Shown: positions 50,501 through 60,455 of the stretch, piece after piece
Position numbering within the stretch: the stretch's first letter is position 1
How the letters are laid out: each line of letters begins with the position of its first letter
Assembly: GCA_007644065.1 (NCBI GenBank)
Contig: VJWN01000001.1
Location: 572,340 to 636,339, forward strand
DNA from: Margaritispora aquatica
Lineage: Eukaryota > Ascomycota > Leotiomycetes > Helotiales > Discinellaceae
Direction of reading: 5' to 3'
Length of the DNA stretch: 64,000 nt
Translations under genes and position numbers: made by a program
The notes under the pieces: model-generated
Databases searched by the model: none
What the model was told of the DNA's origin: nothing
Seen by the model: the letters and a program-made list of their open reading frames with translations, nothing else

Positions 50501-53500
50501 ATGTCTGAGGTGGAGGTAAATGGTACGGCAGTGTTTGACCTCGATATCAGCACCACAAAAGCAGAGTTAGCATCCTCCTCGACCTCTATTCGCATCGGGA
50601 GCCTGAAAGCTTTGGAAGAACGGCTTTCTCGTAAAGGTATGGCTATCAGATTCAGTACACAAGTTGAAATTCATGGTCTTTTGCTAATTTAATGACAGAG
50701 ATTAGTCCGCGACTATTTCCGCCTCTGCTTCAAGTACTTTTCAACACATACCCATATTATACAGACCGAAACTCGCGCCACGCTACTCAAAAATGTCTGA
50801 GGATAGCCTTCAGCTGTGGAGCACCCTTTCAAGCCCTTTTGGGATTCGTGAAATCAATCGATGAGGAAACATCCAAGCAGGGATTAGCAGCTGCTAATGC
50901 CTTCGTCCTCGTGGATTGGTGCAGCATTTTGATCCAGGAGATGGCAGGCACAGAGCTTTGGGAGAAGTGGGGCATTCAAATGATTGAGTACAGCTCTAGA
51001 GTTCTGGAACTATGCTTGGGCGGGTCGTCGAGGATAAATGTGAAGCATACGGCTCTTGTGGTCACACGCCGGGCCCTTCGAAAAGCCTTTACGACTGGTG
51101 ATAAACCCAAGGAGATAATTGAATCAGCCGTCAAAAAGCTTACTGCCAAGGGCTCGCTATCAAATGCCAGAAACGCTGTGATGCTGGGAGTTATAGCTGG
51201 AGTTAGTTCAAGGAAGCCACAAGCGAAGGAATTCTTGGAACAGCTAAAGTCCGAATACTATGCATTTTATGTTCGAGAAATCATTGGGTCCAGGACTCAA
51301 GTGCCAGAGCATATTGCCAATGCTTTGGGCGATTTCTTCTCGGATTTTACGACTGCTGAGGATGTCGAGAAAGAACTTGTTCCGGCGCTGGAGAAAGCCT
51401 TGCTTCGGGCTCCTGAAATTGTTCTAAACGATTTGGTTACCCCCCTTTTCCGTTCTATTTCGGAGTCTATAGATCTTTCCAATGTCCTTCGGAATAAACT
51501 TCTTAAGCCTCTCTTGTCCAATCTCAAGTCTTCCAATGTTACCATTCGCCACGGCGCCCTTTCCGCGTTCAAGGCTATCGTTTCCAGATGCCGTGATGCT
51601 GTTGTGGTGTCACAAATTGCTGAAGAGATTCTCACACCGCTGAAGACAGGAAAGCTCTCCTCTGCGGACCAAAGGGCATATTACGCACAGATGCTTGCAG
51701 CTCTTCCTGTATCCGAAGAAGCCACAACCAAAATTGCACCGGCGATGGCTACTACTGCAAGCAAAGAGGCAAATGAGGCAGCTTTATTTGCAGAAACAAG
51801 CGCCCTACTCCATTATCTCACTAACGGTCCTGCGAATGTTAAGGGCCTTGACAAGCAAGTAATTGATGCCTTTGTCAAGGGAATATCTGATAAAAAGGTA
51901 CCTACAAGGAAACTATGGAGCATTCGGTTGGGAGAGCTGTTCTGGGCAGTTAACGACAAAGATATGATCAATTCCAAACTGGGGAAGCTCGTTGATGCAG
52001 TTTTGCCTGCCCTATTGGACATTTGGCAAGAAGCCACAAATAATTCTATCCAGGCTGGCCAGTCTGGTCTTGTTGTCGGAGCTTATGTTCTCACGGCTAT
52101 TTCAGATAACAAGCTTACTGCGTTGGATAGCCCAAAAGTTGATACTGCCTTAAAACGGGCACAAATTCAGCAGCAAGCTTTGGTAGTAGAGCCGAAGCCA
52201 TCCTTTCTTTTAAATCCTCGTATTTATACAAAGCTCACTAGCGACGATGATTTGAGATGGTTCATCCGAGCTCTATCATCGATGTCTCAGCAACTCAAAA
52301 CTCTAGATCCTGAGTCCGCAATTTCTTTGGCATGGTCGCAGGCCATTATTTTTTGCATTTGTTCGGCAACTGTGACCCCAGCGCTCCGAAGAGAAGCCTC
52401 CAGCGCATTGTCGTTGATGTATGTTCAGAGCGCAGAGAACATTTACAAAACAATCGTTGCGGGATTGTGGCGATGGAGAGACTCAGTCGAATTCGGAGAG
52501 AAAGACAGTGCTGCAGCTGCAGCAAAAACCGAAAATAGAGAGTTACACATGGTTGTAAAGTCAATCTGTTTGCCATCTGGTGAAATCGCCGACATTGGTG
52601 GTCAAGTGGAAGCTACCACCAAGGAAGAACAAATGATCTCGCTCCTCATTATCTCGAGACCAGAGCTTCTCCCACGGGTGAATTGGATCGATACCTGCCT
52701 CCGAGTTGGGGTTGATCCTGGTAAGCTTGCTCATAGCTTCGGGGACATTCTGATGCAAAATATAATTGATTGTACACGCTTTGATGACAAGGTATGCAAT
52801 TTTATCTCTATTTGTGAGTTTTACTTATCTTTCTAGTCTACAATACAAACATCGAAGAACGTCAGGAAAGCCGCCTTTAATGCAGCAGCGGAACTTGCTT
52901 TTGTAGCACCAGAAGCCATGACTTCCCGCATCGTCAAGCTTATTCAGGATGATCTAAATCCAGATCAACTGGCCAACATCGGACCTACAGAGGCGGCAAT
53001 ATTTCGAACTGAAGAGGGGACAGCTTTCGTGGATGTCCTTGCCTCTAAGGCTCAAACATATGTTGCTAATAAAAACATCAAGGACTACGACACATTGAAG
53101 TGGGAAGAAGAGCTCAGAGCACAACTTGCCCAGAAGAAAGGACAACAGAAGAAGCTTACCACAGAAGAGCATGCCAAAGTCAAAGCTCAACTAAAGAAGG
53201 AATCTGAAATTCGACTACAAATCAAGTATCTTGAAGCAAGACTGCTACGAGGCATTGGAATCATTGGTAGCTTGGCGACAGGTCCTCCAACGGAAGCAGG
53301 CGTATGGATGGGTGCAGCCGTCAGATCATTAGTTGCCATTATATCCGCTGGCGCTGGGCTTTTGACAGGTAATGCCGCTCCTGAAACATATATCCTGTGT
53401 GCAGAAAGATTGCCGAGTCGAATTGGAGCATTGAGACCATTCATCGGAATTGCCACCCTTAGAGCTCTTGATGTACCTCACCTCGCGGACAGCCTTGTGC

Positions 53501-56500
53501 AGGAGCCATTGGGGGCTTTAGTGACCAGAGTCTTGTATCGCCTTCGATTTTCTGGTGAACAGCGGCCCTTCGACACTGTATCGTTAACTTATATTTTACC
53601 CCTTGTCTTCCTCGTACTCCAAAAGGGAGGCTTCGGTGATAGCGATGATGCAGATGCTCAATTGGTTCTTGCTCTGGAGTTTCTCACATTCCACACCGAC
53701 GCTTGCTCAGATGTCCTTGTACCGCGCGAACAAGTTCTCTCAGTTTTGATATCATCCATGCAAATGTATAACCAGCATTATAAGATGATCAAGGATTGCT
53801 TGGCAGATCTCTGCAGATGTATTGCTCCCAACATTAGCGATGTTGAAATCTCGATTCTCGCCAATGGGTCCATAGTTCCCCAGGTTTCTGTTCGGACTTC
53901 CGCTTTACAATCTATTAGCGCAGAAATTGACCTGAGTGAGCTCGAGTTTTCGGAGGAGATGTGGATAGCTGCTCACGATGATGTCGAGGAAAACAGGGAT
54001 TTAGGTCGCGAGATCTGGGAAGAGAGTGGATTTCAGATCACTCCTGAATCGCCATTCAGGATGTTGTCCTATCTCGAGAGACCTGACAAGCAACTTCGGC
54101 GAGCAGCAGCCAGAGCTCTTGCTGAAGCAGTCAGTTTACAGCCATCAAGCTTTAATGGCATTCTGGAACGTCTACAGTCATCCTATCAAGAATTAGCGAA
54201 GCCTCGTGTACCCCAGCTTGATGAATATGGCATGCCCAGGAAAATGGATCTCTCGGACCCCTGGGAAGCGAGAAACGGAATCGCGCTTGCATTCAAAGAG
54301 TTGTCGACCGTGTTTGTGGAGTCGATGTTAGACGACTTCCTTCGCTTTTTGATTGAGAGAGGACCCCTTGGAGATAAAAATCCTAATGTTAGAGAGGAAA
54401 TGGTGCAAGCCGCTACCACCATCATTGGTCTCCACGGCCAAGACAAAGTGGAAGAGCTGATGAAGACTTTTGAACAGACCCTAGAGGCTCCAGATAAAGG
54501 CTCTGAGTTCGCTGATCGAGTCAATGAAGCAGTCATCATCATGTACGGTGCATTGGCACGCCACTTGAAGAAGGGAGACTCTCGTGTTCCAAAGGTGGTG
54601 GATCGATTATTGGAAACACTCAGTACACCATCCGAGGCTGTACAGTATGCAGTAGCAGAATGCCTACCTCCACTGGTACGTGCTTCCAGTGATAGTACTC
54701 CAGATTACGTGCAGCGCGTTCTGGATCGTCTTTTCAACTCCAAAAAATATGCTGCTCGTCGTGGAGCAGCTTACGGATTAGCTGGAATTGTCCACGGCAA
54801 AGGTATTTCTGCTCTGAGGGAATATCGAATTATGCCAAATTTGAAAAGTGCCATTGAGAACAAGAAGGATGTAAATCACCGAGAGGGTGCCCTACTGGCC
54901 TATGAACTCCTATCGACAATCCTTGGTCGCATATTTGAACCTTACGCGATCTTAATCGTGCCTCAGCTGCTGTCGAGCTTTGGAGACGCCAGCGCAGACG
55001 TTCGTGAGGGCTGTCTAGCAGCAGCAAAGTCATGCTTCGCCAGCCTGAGCTCGTATGGTGTGAAGCAAATTCTACCGACTCTACTTGATGGTCTCGATGA
55101 CCAGCAGTGGAGGAGTAAGAAAGGAGCCTGTGATCTTCTTGGTGCGATGGCTTATCTAGATCCACAACAGCTTGCTCAGAGTTTACCAGAGATCATTCCA
55201 CCGTTGACTGGAGTCCTCAACGACAGTCATAAGGAGGTGCGTCTTGCTGCCAACCGGAGTTTGAAACGCTTCGGTGAAGTTATTAGCAACCCAGAAATCA
55301 AGGGTCTTGTTGATGTCCTCCTCAAAGCTCTCAGTGATCCAACTAAATACACAGATGATGCCCTCGACTCACTTATCAAAGTCTCATTTGTTCACTACCT
55401 TGATTCGCCATCACTTGCTCTTATTGTCCGCATCCTTGAACGAGGTTTGGGCGATCGATCCGCAACGAAGCGAAAATCTTCCCAAGTGATCGGCAGTCTG
55501 GCACATTTAACAGAACGAAAGGATCTTATCTCACACTTGCCAATCTTGGTTGCCGGTTTGAAGGTGGCAGTCGTGGATCCCGTCCCCACAACTCGTGCTA
55601 CTGCATCCAAAGCCCTTGGTTCACTTATTGAGAAACTTGGCGAGGATGCCCTGCCAGATCTTATACCAGGACTTATGCAGACACTCAAATCCGACACTGG
55701 TGCAGGAGACCGACTTGGTTCTGCACAGGCTCTTAGTGAGGTCCTTGCCGGTCTTGGTACTGGTAGGCTTGAAGAAACTCTGCCAACCATTCTTCAAAAT
55801 GTTGCATCTTCCAAGGCTTCTGTCCGTGAAGGTTTCATGTCTCTCTTTATTTTCTTGCCAGTTTGTTTTGGTAACAGCTTCGCCAACTATCTAAGTAGAA
55901 TCATTCCTCCAATTCTTTCAGGTCTCGCTGATGATGTCGAATCGATTCGCGACACTTCTCTCCGGGCCGGTCGTCTGCTTGTCAAAAACTTCGCGACGAA
56001 GTCTATCGACTTGTTACTGCCTGAGCTTGAAAGGGGTCTTGCAGATGATAACTACAGAATTCGTCTCAGCTCGGTTGAGCTGGTTGGTGATCTATTGTTC
56101 AATCTTACAGGTATCACTGCGAGTACTGAACAGGACGAGGTTGAGGAAGGTGCACAAGAAGCCGGAGCATCTCTCTTGGAGGTTCTTGGCGAGGAGAAGC
56201 GAAATCGTGTTCTTTCGTCACTGTACATTTGTCGTTGTGATACTTCAGGCCTGGTCCGCACTGCTGCGGTTAACGTTTGGAAAGCTTTGGTTGCATTCAG
56301 TATGTATCCATTTTTTTCAATCCTCGTCTGGTAACAAGTTACATTTTTACGGGTGCTCTCTCCTTAAGTGAGGGTTGAGGTACTCTGGGCTCCTTCCTTC
56401 TACTAAAATGCAGCACAACTTTCCCCTCAATCTTCGTTCGTACCCCAAGAAATCTTAATCTTCAACATCAACGTGCGAATAATCTCTTGAACTGGACAAC

Positions 56501-59500
56501 ACCTTCACTCCCATCTGGTTTGCGGCCACGGTCGACCATTCTGCATCTCAAGAGCTGCTGGTGGTTTGATTTGAACAGCATACGTGCAATCTTGGTAAGT
56601 TGAACACTCCTCATCGTGATAATTGTGGCTCACGATTGCCATCAATTGCTAATTTTTGAGGCTCTCAGTCAGCTCAATATGGAGTCTGCTACGTCGTGTA
56701 ATGTGGTCTCAACCATTCTCCAATTTATCTTGTTGATGACCTGGACTTGTTTGAACGACACTCCGAATCATAGACAAAACCCGCTATTCCTTGCTTACAT
56801 GGCAACCCAGACCGACGTCGAAGACATTGCATCACTGGCCAGCATTTCCTTCGCCAAGGGTCTCTTTGAAGTTCTCCGAGCCACCACTCCACCTTCCATT
56901 GACTATTTTAAGACGCTTTCAATTCCAACACCGGATTGCTGGGCTGTCTATGTTCTAGTATTGGAGAAGACCGGCTGCCGTCCTCGACTATACGTTGGAA
57001 GTGGCACAAATTCCAGCACTGGACTCCAACATAGATTCTATGCATACGATAACCTCCATTCCTTGCCTAGATTTGTCGAAGATTCTCTCAATGAGGGCTT
57101 CCAGATAGTTAATAAGGCGCCTTTGTGCTGGATCGATATCCCAGCCGCCTCAATGGTTCCCTGCCATCGGTTGCTGATGATTGCTCTCGAGGCCACGTTC
57201 ACTTACCTGCTATGGGCGATGAAAGCAGTCTCCAAAGACTTTGGAATGGGCCACCTCGCTCTCTGGGACCGAGTCAATCTTCCGTGGGACGGACTCTGCT
57301 CTCATTGCTGCTTAACTGAATCAATTCGTGGCGACTTTGGTATCACGCCTGAGGAACTGGAGGCTTTATCTGTCGAGAAGAAATGGGTGCAAGCTCAAAA
57401 AAAAGCAGAGTACAATCTAGAATACGAGTATGCCAGTAGAGAAGCCGATCCCGAGAAATACCAGAAGCGCAACCAAACTTGCAAAGCAAATATCAGAGCC
57501 AGAAGCCCAGACAGACTCAACAAGGACAACAAACACTGGAAGCGGGACATCAAGGCATCAAAGAAGTACTTCTGCAAAGCCTGTAAAACGGCTTTCGCTT
57601 CACCAAAAGAACTCGAGGATCATTTCCTCAAACCAGGCCACCTCAATAGAGCACGTAAAGAGGCAAAGGCAAAGACGCAACCCTTCTACTGCAAACCATG
57701 CATCTATGGAACTAAAAATAGCTGCCATTTTAATGCCCATCTCAACAGACCCAGTCACCACAAATTGGTTGCCGCTTCTCTGAAGGAGGAAGAGGAGCTG
57801 GATGAGGATCAGGAGAGCTCTCCGGAGCTTGACTGATCATATTCCACCTGTGAGACTTCTTTTTGGACCGAATCGACAGCGTCGATCGAAGGAACATCGC
57901 TATGTCAAAAGCACTTTTAAATGCCAATGTATTGTGTTCGCTCATGTGCGCGAAATTATCACTACTCTGTCATATTGGCACCCTGGACCTGGAATCATTT
58001 TCATTCTGTTCTAATTACGCATTTCATGTTCATACTAATCACAAAATAGGCCCAAAAACTCTCAAGGAATTGATTCCTACCCTAACACAACTCATCATTC
58101 GACGACTAGGAAGTTCGAATATGGAGCAAAAGATCATTGCTGGCAACGCGCTTGGAGAATTGATCCGCAAAGCTGGAGATGGAGTTTTGTCAACTCTCCT
58201 CCCTACGCTCGAGGAAGGTCTACAGACATCGACAGATACCGATGCCAAACAAGGTATCTGCATTGCCCTCCGCGAACTCATATCTTCTGCTTCTCCTGAG
58301 GCTCTTGAAGATCACGAAAAGACATTGATTTCAGTCGTTCGAACTGCGCTCATAGACTCTGACGAAGACGTCCGAGATGCCGCAGCTGAGGCCTTTGATT
58401 CCCTACAACATATTCTTGGCAAGAAGGCGGTTGACCAGGTTCTTCCATACCTGCTCAGCCTCCTGCGTACGGAAGATGAGGCGGACAATGCGTTATCTGC
58501 CTTATTGACCTTGCTTACCGAAACCACAAGATCGAACATCATCCTTCCAAACCTGATTCCAACTCTTACTACCTCTCCAATTTCATCGTTCAATGCAAAG
58601 GCCTTGGCTTCGCTGTCCACTGTTGCTGGATCTGCAATGACACGACGCTTGCCCACCATACTCAACTCTCTTATGGATAATATAATTGCTTGCAAGGATG
58701 AAGATCTCAAGGATGATCTAACCTCTGCATTTGATACCGTTATTCTCTCTATTGATGAATTTGACGGTTTAAATACTACTATGAGCGTACTTCTAGCGCT
58801 TGTCAAGCATGATGATCATAGACGACGAGCAGCCACAGGTCATCATCTGACAAAATTCTTTGCATCTTCCACAGTTGATTATTCTCGGTATAACCAAGAT
58901 ATTATCAGAGCACTTTTGATTTCATTCGATGATGGAGATATAGAGGTTGTCAAGGCTGCCTGGGCAGCACTGAACGAATTCACAAAGCATCTTAAAAAGG
59001 AAGAGATGGAAGCTCTGGTTTACTCCACGCGACAAATTTTACAGCACGTGGGAGTGGCAGGATCCAACCTTCCAGGATTTGGACTACCCAAGGGCATCAG
59101 TGCTATCCTGCCCATTTTCTTACAAGGACTGATGAATGGTACCGCAGAGCAAAGGACACAATCTGCCCTTGCTATCTCTGATATTGTTGATCGGACTAGC
59201 GGCGACTCACTAAAGCCTTTCGTTACCCAAATTACTGGACCTCTTATCAGAGTAGTCTCTGAGAGGTCTGTCGATGTCAAGGCTGCAATTCTCCTTACCT
59301 TGAACAACCTCCTGGAAAAAATACCCACTTTCCTCAAGCCATTCTTACCACAGCTTCAAAGAACATTCGCCAAGTCCTTGGCGGATACATCAAGCGAGGT
59401 GCTCAGAAGTCGTGCTGCGAAAGCCCTTGGCACCCTGATTACGTTGACTCCGAGAATCGATCCACTGATCGCAGAGTTGGTAACAGGCTCAAAGACTTCC

Positions 59501-60455
59501 GATATTGGCGTGCGAAATGCAATGCTTAAGGCACTATACGAAGTCATCAGCAAAGCAGGAGCAAACATGAGTGAGGCATCGAGAAGCGCCGTTCTCAGTC
59601 TCATTGATGCTGATCCTGAAGATAATGACATGTCGATGGCAATCACCAACGCAAAATTACTCGGTGCATTGATCAAGAATGTGCCTGCCGAGAATGCCAC
59701 CAGCTTGATCAAGAACAGGGTTGTAACAACTCACTTCAGCCAGTCCTCTGTTTTGGCTCTTAATGCAGTCTTATTAGAAGCGCCAACTGCAATAACCGAA
59801 GGTGTCTTTGCGGATGATGTGCCGGGAGTTGTTTGTCAGGGTATGGCGAGCAAGAATGTGAGAACTTTGACCTTTCCCTACTGATTGCCAAACTAACATT
59901 ATACAGAATTTTGTATCCGACAACAGTGTTCTGGCAGCTGGAAAGTATCTCCTCTCTGACTCTAAGAGCTATGATTTCGAAGTTCTTAAACCGATCTTTG
60001 AATCTCTAGCTAAAGTCATCCAACCAGGCAATCCTGTTGATACTCGCCGCCTTGCTCTGGTAGTGATTCGCACTACTTGCAGACATCATCTAGAGCTTGT
60101 TAGGCCTCACCTTCCATTACTTGCTGCTCCTGTGTTTGCAAGTGTGCGAGACCCAGTCATTCCGGTGAAGCTTGCCGCAGAAGCAGCATTTATGGCCCTA
60201 TTCAATGTGGTTGACGAGGAGAGCAAAGTGTTTGACAAGTTTATCATCTCACAGGACCTACCTGCAACACAGAAGCGAAGCATGCAGGATTACTTCAAAC
60301 GAGTTGCCTTGAGACTTGCGAATACCGCGCGAGAGAGGAGAGATGCAGAAGGCGGACAGGGCGGTTTGGGTCTTTCCAATGATGAGGTTGATGATGAAAA
60401 GGAGATTTGGAGCATTGGAAAGGTGGATCTTGGTGAAGGAGCGTTTGATGAGTGA
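50501..60455 (+). CDS. GCN1: eIF2-alpha kinase activator GCN1
   Basis: Very large HEAT-repeat protein that binds translating and collided ribosomes and passes the uncharged-tRNA signal to the kinase GCN2. Five exons: 50501-50636, 50699-52791, 52837-56299, 58050-59857 and 59907-60455. Phases match at every junction and give 2,682 aa, close to yeast Gcn1 as I recall its length. HEAT repeats run throughout. The eEF3-like central part is in exon 3, and the most conserved region (GAAYGLAGIVHGKG, EGALLAYELLS, WRSKKGACDLLGAMAYLDP) precedes the Gcn2-binding part encoded late in exon 3 and in exon 4 (RRLGSSNMEQKIIAGNALGELIRKAG). Introns 1, 2 and 4 are 45-62 nt, but intron 3 (56300-58049) is 1,750 nt and contains a GIY-YIG ORF. 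Its donor GTATGT, branch CTAAT and acceptor AATAG are normal, and splicing restores AFSPKTLKELIPTL. Confidence 0.96.
56300..58049 (+). other. Oversized GCN1 intron 3 hosting an ORF
   Basis: The intron is 1,750 nt against 45-62 nt for the other GCN1 introns. Donor A|GTATGT and acceptor CTAATCACAAAATAG|GC are both canonical, and the flanking codons join to give an unbroken GCN1 frame. About 500 nt precede and about 210 nt follow the nested ORF. I could not see a target-site duplication or terminal repeats by eye. Confidence 0.9.
56799..57836 (+). CDS. GIY-YIG nuclease-like protein with two C2H2 zinc fingers, nested in the GCN1 intron
   Basis: From the ATG at 56799 the ORF gives 345 aa; the frame is open further upstream, and another ATG at 56679 is possible. 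A GIY-YIG fold is indicated by AVYVLV (residues 49-54, the GIY strand), LYVGSG (64-69, the YIG strand), the basic pair HR at 78-79 and a following glutamate in IALEATF (Glu131), in the order of Tyr, Arg and Glu catalytic residues. A Cys cluster LCSHCC lies at 166-171. Two fingers with identical spacing C-x2-C-x12-H-x5-H occupy 259-281 and 298-320 (YFCKACKTAF, FYCKPCIYG). A Lys/Arg-rich linker lies between nuclease and fingers, and the tail is acidic. The ORF is intact and in the same orientation as GCN1. DNA cleavage and homing are inference; the combination suggests a sequence-specific endonuclease or its domesticated descendant. Confidence 0.8.
   Translation: MATQTDVEDIASLASISFAKGLFEVLRATTPPSIDYFKTLSIPTPDCWAVYVLVLEKTGCRPRLYVGSGTNSSTGLQHRFYAYDNLHSLPRFVEDSLNEGFQIVNKAPLCWIDIPAASMVPCHRLLMIALEATFTYLLWAMKAVSKDFGMGHLALWDRVNLPWDGLCSHCCLTESIRGDFGITPEELEALSVEKKWVQAQKKAEYNLEYEYASREADPEKYQKRNQTCKANIRARSPDRLNKDNKHWKRDIKASKKYFCKACKTAFASPKELEDHFLKPGHLNRARKEAKAKTQPFYCKPCIYGTKNSCHFNAHLNRPSHHKLVAASLKEEEELDEDQESSPELD

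Follow-up and report, generated by a model that had tools for sequence, protein, structure and literature searches.

Genes for a predicted GIY-YIG/zinc-finger nuclease in introns of housekeeping genes of Margaritispora aquatica: candidate homing introns in a nuclear genome

An intact ORF with features of a GIY-YIG nuclease lies within an intron of the GCN1 gene of Margaritispora aquatica, which raises the question of whether it belongs to a mobile nuclear element or is a domesticated nuclease gene, the two options offered in a preliminary description. The window analysed is the whole stretch of 64,000 nt (assembly GCA_007644065.1, contig VJWN01000001.1, positions 572,340 to 636,339 of the forward strand). 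The following features were assigned in it.

52837..56299, + strand: GCN1 exon upstream of the insertion; open frame that continues into the downstream exon in phase 1
56296..56298, + strand: additional Phe codon (TTC) next to the insertion, without counterpart in 120 of 120 GCN1 homologues (best 120 of 285)
56300..58049, + strand: ORF-bearing GCN1 intron of spliceosomal type, 1,750 nt, GT-AG, phase 1 (from sequence)
56300..56678, + strand: 5' leader of the intron, 379 nt, up to a start codon assigned in this analysis
56679..57836, + strand: ORF of 385 aa plus stop, with GIY-YIG domain, helical linker and two C2H2 fingers (from homologues, motif and predicted model)
56934..57314, + strand: GIY-YIG nuclease domain, residues 86-212
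57348..57560, + strand: residues 224-294, a long helical linker in the predicted model (from its secondary structure)
57573..57641, + strand: C2H2 finger 1, residues 299-321 (motif; weak, sub-cutoff Pfam match to zf-met)
57690..57758, + strand: C2H2 finger 2, residues 338-360 (motif, spacing as in finger 1; weak, sub-cutoff Pfam match to zf-C2H2_REST)
58033..58039, + strand: TACTAAT, a putative branch point (from sequence)
58050..59857, + strand: GCN1 exon downstream of the insertion; open frame, phase 1

A 589-aa query from the upstream exon was matched end to end by a solved chain of 2,898 aa that is deposited as Ribosomal protein L19, and yeast GCN1 was matched over residues 3-185. The ORF-bearing intron starts with GTATGT at 56300 and ends with TAG at 58047-58049. 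The adjacent introns have only 45 nt (52792-52836) and 49 nt (59858-59906), so that the contrast first described, 1,750 nt against about 50 nt, was borne out together with the intron ends. The ORF was also correctly described as intact and in the orientation of GCN1, i.e. on the sense strand.

Both zinc fingers have the spacing C-X2-C-X12-H-X5-H and are thus identical in this respect, as had been stated. The GIY-YIG hallmark residues were found to be conserved, but the start codon implied for them (ATG 56799) had to be moved to ATG 56679 according to the homologues; counted from there, the former Arg79 and Glu131 are R119 and E171. Among 67 family members, with P0002 left out and only members with a letter in the column counted, Y91, Y105 and G107 were each conserved in 66/67, R119 in 64/66 and E171 in 59/62. 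Y91, Y105, R119 and E171, which we take to be the catalytic residues, represent the Tyr, Tyr, Arg and Glu of the GIY-YIG superfamily in an alignment to I-TevI made by eye. I-TevI is the GIY-YIG homing endonuclease of a group I intron of phage T4; the ORF protein is only 15-16% identical to it and, by Rfam, the intron that encodes this protein does not belong to group I.

Comparison of the predicted fold with known structures gave 12 best rows that were all GIY-YIG, with I-TevI first, and I-TevI, UvrC, EndoII and Slx1 ranked above all else. Foldseek with the full model gave nothing significant (best PDB row unrelated with E 1.0, I-TevI second) and no viral row with E < 0.001. The Pfam family GIY-YIG had no match in 19 proteins with full Pfam lists, was absent from the precomputed accessions of 58 profile-search homologues and was not among 25 of the 84 Pfam families listed for 64 members. 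Neither Pfam nor PHROGs provided a nuclease name for the family, and the sole match of PF01541 in the genome was an SLX1-like gene. PF01541 is, however, a detection aid and does not define the superfamily. A lack of profile matches had been proposed as an argument against a GIY-YIG enzyme; the Pfam match is indeed absent, yet the predicted fold is that of GIY-YIG proteins. On fold and catalytic residues the ORF is assigned to the GIY-YIG superfamily, and metal-dependent DNA cleavage is predicted.

With the ORF alone as query 13 homologues were obtained at E ≤ 1e-3, and a profile of 17 sequences yielded 58; by these searches the likeness of the ORF to its relatives exceeds chance. As the nearest full-length relative is only 78% identical (fragment P0002, 83%), a recent transfer is not proved. 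Five copies were detected in the genome at E ≤ 0.001, all of them in sense within housekeeping genes (GCN1, ATP2, clathrin, PYC and DED1) as inserts of 1.57-1.92 kb, and no intergenic or antisense copy was found at this threshold. An intron location had been asked about for further copies, and it applies to 4/4 of the others in this genome, one of which, in DED1, has an irregular 3' junction. Four of the five, including that in GCN1, have GT..AG ends and are in frame; the DED1 copy has GT without AG. All five copies have an unbroken ORF with the catalytic residues conserved. Measured to start codons chosen in this analysis, the leaders comprise 355-379 nt in four copies and 528 nt in ATP2. Leaders and trailers are weakly similar (in 3 of 20 comparisons the score was attained by no more than 2 of 500 block shuffles). 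The sites in ATP2, DED1 and clathrin lie in stretches strongly conserved in comparison with solved yeast or animal chains, while those in PYC and GCN1 are less conserved. In a core-domain tree the five copies were spread over three separate clades and two ORFs named cpa2 were placed in different clades; relatives in other fungi are located in, or named after, other genes. A group I or group II intron was ruled out, as a ribozyme core had no support from Rfam in the five loci: there was no match at the gathering score, and the sole match at E ≤ 1 was a sub-threshold one to RsmY, unrelated to group I/II introns. An HNH nuclease was likewise ruled out, with one weak match on another contig.

A further host gene was indicated by a single automated gene model for ATP1 of Colletotrichum tanaceti. 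This model (after FTG) and ATP2 of M. aquatica (between LTG and LTIAEE) break off at the same column of the alignment, and the own ATP1 of M. aquatica is uninterrupted there. The ORF of the model, P0065, had its best match among the five copies in ATP2 (36% over 213 aa). ATP1 and ATP2 share the aligned column, but the core-domain tree keeps their ORFs apart, with the ATP1 ORF outside the ATP2 clade. Judged from these alignments, one branch may have moved between homologous codons of the two genes.

In the assembly, the DED1 copy ends in ..CCTTATCG, followed directly by GGACTT and without AG. An ordinary-looking intron of 749 nt (A) ends 1 nt upstream of the insert (B); no nuclease relic was seen in A (best E 0.016). 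If the single G between A and B is counted as a micro-exon, the reading frame is kept only when the end of B is ..TTATCG. An in-frame alternative is an AG 15 nt upstream, which would add five residues inside helicase motif V. A second DED1 gene was rejected as an explanation of the junction, since none is close: the next best by score has 43% identity, and other exon-sized matches reached up to 66% over 41 aa. The junction may result from an assembly error, unusual splicing or decay.

The GCN1 site was uninterrupted and without insert in 120/120 homologues, some of them 94-96% identical; these were the best 120 of 285 matches to the joined query, a list biased towards uninterrupted ORFs, from which no frequency follows, and the comparison covered GCN1 in other species. 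Three homologues come from contigs in which just 2-5 nt are spare, too few for an intron. From the uninterrupted homologues it follows that the intron itself was gained at GCN1, and the extra Phe codon, a one-codon footprint, indicates that the insertion was not perfectly clean. The same ORF in all relatives, with no empty sites, had been named as the mark of a normal nested gene; instead, empty GCN1 sites occur in other species.

ORFs in introns of several essential genes, together with an empty site, suggest selfish introns that copy themselves within nuclear genes. On sequence and predicted structure, the GCN1 insert is probably a spliceosomal homing intron of the nuclear genome: a selfish element that combines a removable spliceosomal intron with a GIY-YIG/C2H2 homing endonuclease gene. 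The empty GCN1 sites and the in-intron copies thus support the earlier option of a mobile nuclear element, while the domesticated gene is not favoured, because the site is empty in relatives. The host would tolerate the proposed intron because the spliceosome would excise it from the mRNA of GCN1. Expressed from the sense-strand ORF of the intron, the protein would enter the nucleus, where the fingers and linker would recognise the uninterrupted GCN1 exon and the I-TevI-like domain would cut it. Where the two alleles meet, in a heterokaryon, a cross or a hybrid, repair from the intron-bearing one would then copy the intron in and destroy the target, and the element would spread; related elements would be specialised on other essential genes.

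It is unlikely that the endonuclease gene alone was mobile and entered pre-existing introns as safe, transcribed harbours. The intron ends of the five copies, which are not recognisably alike save for weak trailer similarity, and the 749-nt intron 1 nt upstream of the DED1 insert would fit such a course, and the list of empty GCN1 sites is poorly suited to showing relatives with a short intron. However, the intron was a gain at GCN1 by the 120/120 uninterrupted homologues (best 120 of 285), the organism's own ATP1 lacks an intron at the corresponding column, and the leader length of 355-379 nt recurs in 4/5 copies. It is very improbable that the ORF is a domesticated nuclease which serves the host and has been passed on vertically like any nested gene. 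The five intact ORFs with conserved catalytic residues do imply that function was kept, but intact ORFs are equally expected from active homing genes, and the empty GCN1 site in relatives, the three clades and the other host genes in other fungi argue against it. Least probable of all is a family of transposons whose random insertions persisted in introns alone: several copies do occur in one genome, but all five are in sense, the ATP1 and ATP2 inserts are at homologous codons, no further coding domain was seen, and a terminal-repeat transposon was ruled out by a target duplication of at most 1 nt at the splice-site borders and the lack of a clear terminal inverted repeat in the five copies (end-to-end local scores of 8-16, no shuffle control).

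The homing intron proposed here resembles introners and introner-like elements, as insertions that create spliceosomal introns. Introners are mostly short, non-coding, sequence-similar copies, whereas the fungal copies are few, diverged and coding. The closest likeness is to mirusvirus shintrons, which in the text of PMC12768974 are GT-AG spliceosomal introns without a group I/II signature, located in conserved genes with target-gene preference and carrying homing-endonuclease genes, including GIY-YIG. The fungal introns share the GT-AG ends (4/5 copies), the missing group I/II signature, a homing-type nuclease gene and intron-less alleles (on the fungal side for GCN1 and in other species). 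Unlike shintrons of virus genomes they lie in nuclear housekeeping genes and their ORF has C2H2 fingers; the terms 'zinc finger' and 'fungi' are absent from the main text of PMC12768974, and in one section of that paper the homing of viral shintrons, too, is without demonstration. When viral contigs were scanned with one pattern, it matched 14 times, but no relative was among the matches. The WHO elements and HO of yeasts, as portrayed in passages of PMC7282813, are likewise homing elements of the nucleus that have a zinc-finger region at the C-terminus and a host-gene target, FBA1, but are intein/LAGLIDADG-related and, in the case of WHO, replace the 3' end of FBA1. The fungal element has instead a predicted GIY-YIG fold and lies in an intron predicted to be spliced, and a LAGLIDADG element was ruled out by 0 matches of PF00961 in the genome. 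The GIY-YIG homing endonuclease gene in a nuclear telomeric helicase gene of Ustilago maydis is, in the account of PMC7593156, a single chance insertion that derives from mitochondria and apparently lacks function, unlike the family in spliceosomal introns considered here. Among the top-ranked papers of searches in the open-licence literature (at most 20 per search), which covers few preprints and subscription journals, none described a homing endonuclease in a spliceosomal intron of a cellular gene.

The origin of spliceosomal introns is a long-standing question. A wider reading, which we regard as possible though rather doubtful, is that natural gene drives in filamentous ascomycetes install ready-made spliceosomal introns in essential nuclear exons. 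They would cut the target until the intron is copied in, jump between paralogue codons as in ATP1/ATP2 and leave an ordinary-looking intron after decay of the endonuclease; this would be a cellular route by which endonucleases drive the gain of spliceosomal introns, with the mirusvirus shintrons as its viral branch. If such a family is real in fungal nuclear housekeeping genes, it would be the cellular counterpart of viral shintrons. Because some of these fungi are amenable to culture and crossing, homing into nuclear protein genes, endonuclease-driven intron gain and the fate of introns after decay would be directly testable. The family would also add naturally divergent GIY-YIG/zinc-finger nucleases with targets in conserved genes. 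For annotation it is a warning, as ORFs of this kind have here been merged with host genes or given the names of these genes (ATP1, cpa2). Two weak matches to the ORF were also present in the genome, at C46:1799307 (E 0.03) and C47:1244453 (E 0.16).

The plus strand of the window carries GCN1 across the region of 56300-58049, and the unusually long GCN1 intron claimed in the preliminary description was confirmed there, with 1,750 nt compared with 45 and 49 nt in the neighbouring introns. It has a GTATGT donor, a branch-like TACTAAT and a TAG acceptor, and the GCN1 frame stays open after the predicted phase 1 splicing. The ORF described within this intron is intact and in sense orientation; homologues place its start at 56679, giving 385 aa.

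The genome (42.4 Mb, 49 contigs) was searched three times with queries from different branches of the family of GIY-YIG nuclease-like ORFs, and the same five loci were obtained at E<=0.001. The search whose query contains ATP1 additionally matched ATP1 and ATP2 exons. Whether other copies are also intragenic had been left to be checked; all four remaining loci were in sense within genes, with exons read on both sides.

Inserts in M. aquatica genes other than GCN1
Clathrin heavy chain copy: insert of 1,661 nt, sense, phase 1
ATP2 copy: insert of 1,917 nt, sense, phase 0
Pyruvate carboxylase (PYC) copy: insert of 1,568 nt, sense, phase 0
DED1 copy: insert of 1,638 nt, sense, irregular 3' junction

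The leader 5' of the ORF measured 355-379 nt in four of the five copies and 528 nt in the ATP2 copy, while the trailers 3' of it measured 111-232 nt. The ATP2, DED1 and clathrin inserts sit in stretches that are strongly conserved when compared with solved chains of yeast and animals; conservation at the PYC and GCN1 sites is lower. The sole Pfam GIY-YIG match in the genome was a gene that reads as SLX1-like (L001, G000 C26:122461). One weak HNH match (L054, G000 C11:570862; E 5.3e-4) was also obtained, in an open frame of 215 aa.

These elements are probably nuclear spliceosomal homing introns with a GIY-YIG/C2H2 endonuclease. As a spliced intron, such an insertion would be nearly harmless and so tolerated within an essential exon; the encoded nuclease would cut intron-less alleles, and repair would then copy the intron into the cut allele. 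Group I homing introns follow the same logic, the difference being that the spliceosome would stand in the ribozyme's place.

For the empty site, 400 aa of GCN1 from each side were joined as a query, and matches were judged around the junction. Sequence comparison indicates that the GCN1 site is empty in other species: none of the 120 homologues listed (the best of 285, a selection that favours uninterrupted GCN1 and in which annotated records are possibly already spliced) had an insert, reading ..WKALVA-SPRTLKEL.. or close variants, which is a comparison between species from a biased list and not a frequency. Metagenome gene calls are as a rule unspliced. Identity reached 94-96% for some of the 120, and the closest named relative among the matches listed was a Lachnellula (89.9%). 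The room for an intron, contig minus coding length, was computed for 20 of the 120 and was smaller than the M. aquatica intron in 11. Three Aureobasidium records had 2-5 nt left over, and therefore no intron fits; P0072, a close relative (96%), had 145 nt. The Phe just 5' of the intron in M. aquatica was present in none of the 120, nor in a solved GCN1-matching chain deposited as Ribosomal protein L19 (entries include 8pv1, titled Chaetomium pre-60S); judged from these alignments, the insertion left one extra codon behind as a small footprint. That chain (PDB 8i9x_LR, 2,898 aa) matched GCN1 over the whole query and is probably a fused gene model.

A profile search yielded 58 family proteins, with named members from Elasticomyces (Dothideomycetes), Neophaeococcomyces (Eurotiomycetes) and Colletotrichum (Sordariomycetes), and further ones from Cadophora and Verticillium. 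The Elasticomyces and Neophaeococcomyces members are annotated cpa2; these two public entries hold the ORF alone, and the name suggests that both may lie within the cpa2 gene. The closely related P0002 (83% identity over 227 aa) has a late start and Ser in place of the first Cys of finger 1. It reads past the stop of the GCN1 copy, with a trailer that by eye is nearly identical, and may represent a copy undergoing decay at this site.

P0065, a public ATP synthase alpha model from Colletotrichum tanaceti, is chimeric, fusing ATP1 exons with half of a family ORF; the ATP1 exon runs into the ORF directly after FTG. In an ATP1/ATP2 alignment this switch falls in the same column as the M. aquatica ATP2 insertion (between LTG and LTIAEE). 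M. aquatica's own ATP1 is uninterrupted at that column; its intron lies about 3 codons further on. The P0065 ORF was 36% identical to that of the ATP2 copy over 213 aa, its best match among the five copies. In a midpoint-rooted tree of the core domain (65 of 68 sequences) the five M. aquatica copies fell into three clades (supports 0.97, 0.98 and 0.92) and the two cpa2-named ORFs into different clades. The ATP1 ORF lay outside the ATP2 clade; an N-terminal motif common to both is outside the core-domain input. Because this tree does not unite the two ORFs, the homologous position hints at movement between ATP1 and ATP2 but does not prove it. Together with the biased homologue list, the split slightly weakens the homing-intron reading and slightly strengthens the alternative that the endonuclease gene alone is mobile and entered introns already present, which we consider unlikely.

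Mirusviruses have spliceosomal introns, termed shintrons, that carry nucleases of the HNH, GIY-YIG and other kinds, and the same homing logic was proposed for them in November 2025 (PMC12768974); besides that paper, the term "shintron" matched one unrelated paper in the literature searched. WHO elements of yeast home within the nuclear genome and have zinc fingers, but they use another nuclease class and no spliced intron (PMC7282813), and the nuclear GIY-YIG gene of Ustilago stems from one transfer and is apparently dead (PMC7593156). As this logic has been proposed for mirusviruses and the other two cases differ, the M. aquatica elements are classed with spliceosomal homing introns, of which they would be a new, cellular form.

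The DED1 insert ends in ..CCTTATCG followed by GGACTT, with no AG, and an unusually long 749-nt intron (L029 / L006) stops one base, a single G, upstream of it. The junction may reflect an assembly error, unusual splicing or decay. A second close DED1 gene was not found in the genome, nor a credible nuclease remnant in the 749-nt intron.

The palindrome AAAAGTACTTTT, picked after being seen, occurred at 20 places in 42.4 Mb versus 8 for the reversed pattern. Four of the 20 were within the ATP2 or DED1 inserts or the adjoining intron: G000 C2:287611 in the ATP2 trailer, and C23:34090, 35106 and 35856 at DED1 (one in the ORF, one in the leader inside a 20-nt palindrome and one in the 749-nt intron). 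A near variant was present at window position 57907. In L035 (4517-5968) and L037 (4525-5295), open frames near palindrome clusters contain similar segments (..LALRSG../..LALRTGN..) and perhaps represent another mobile element.
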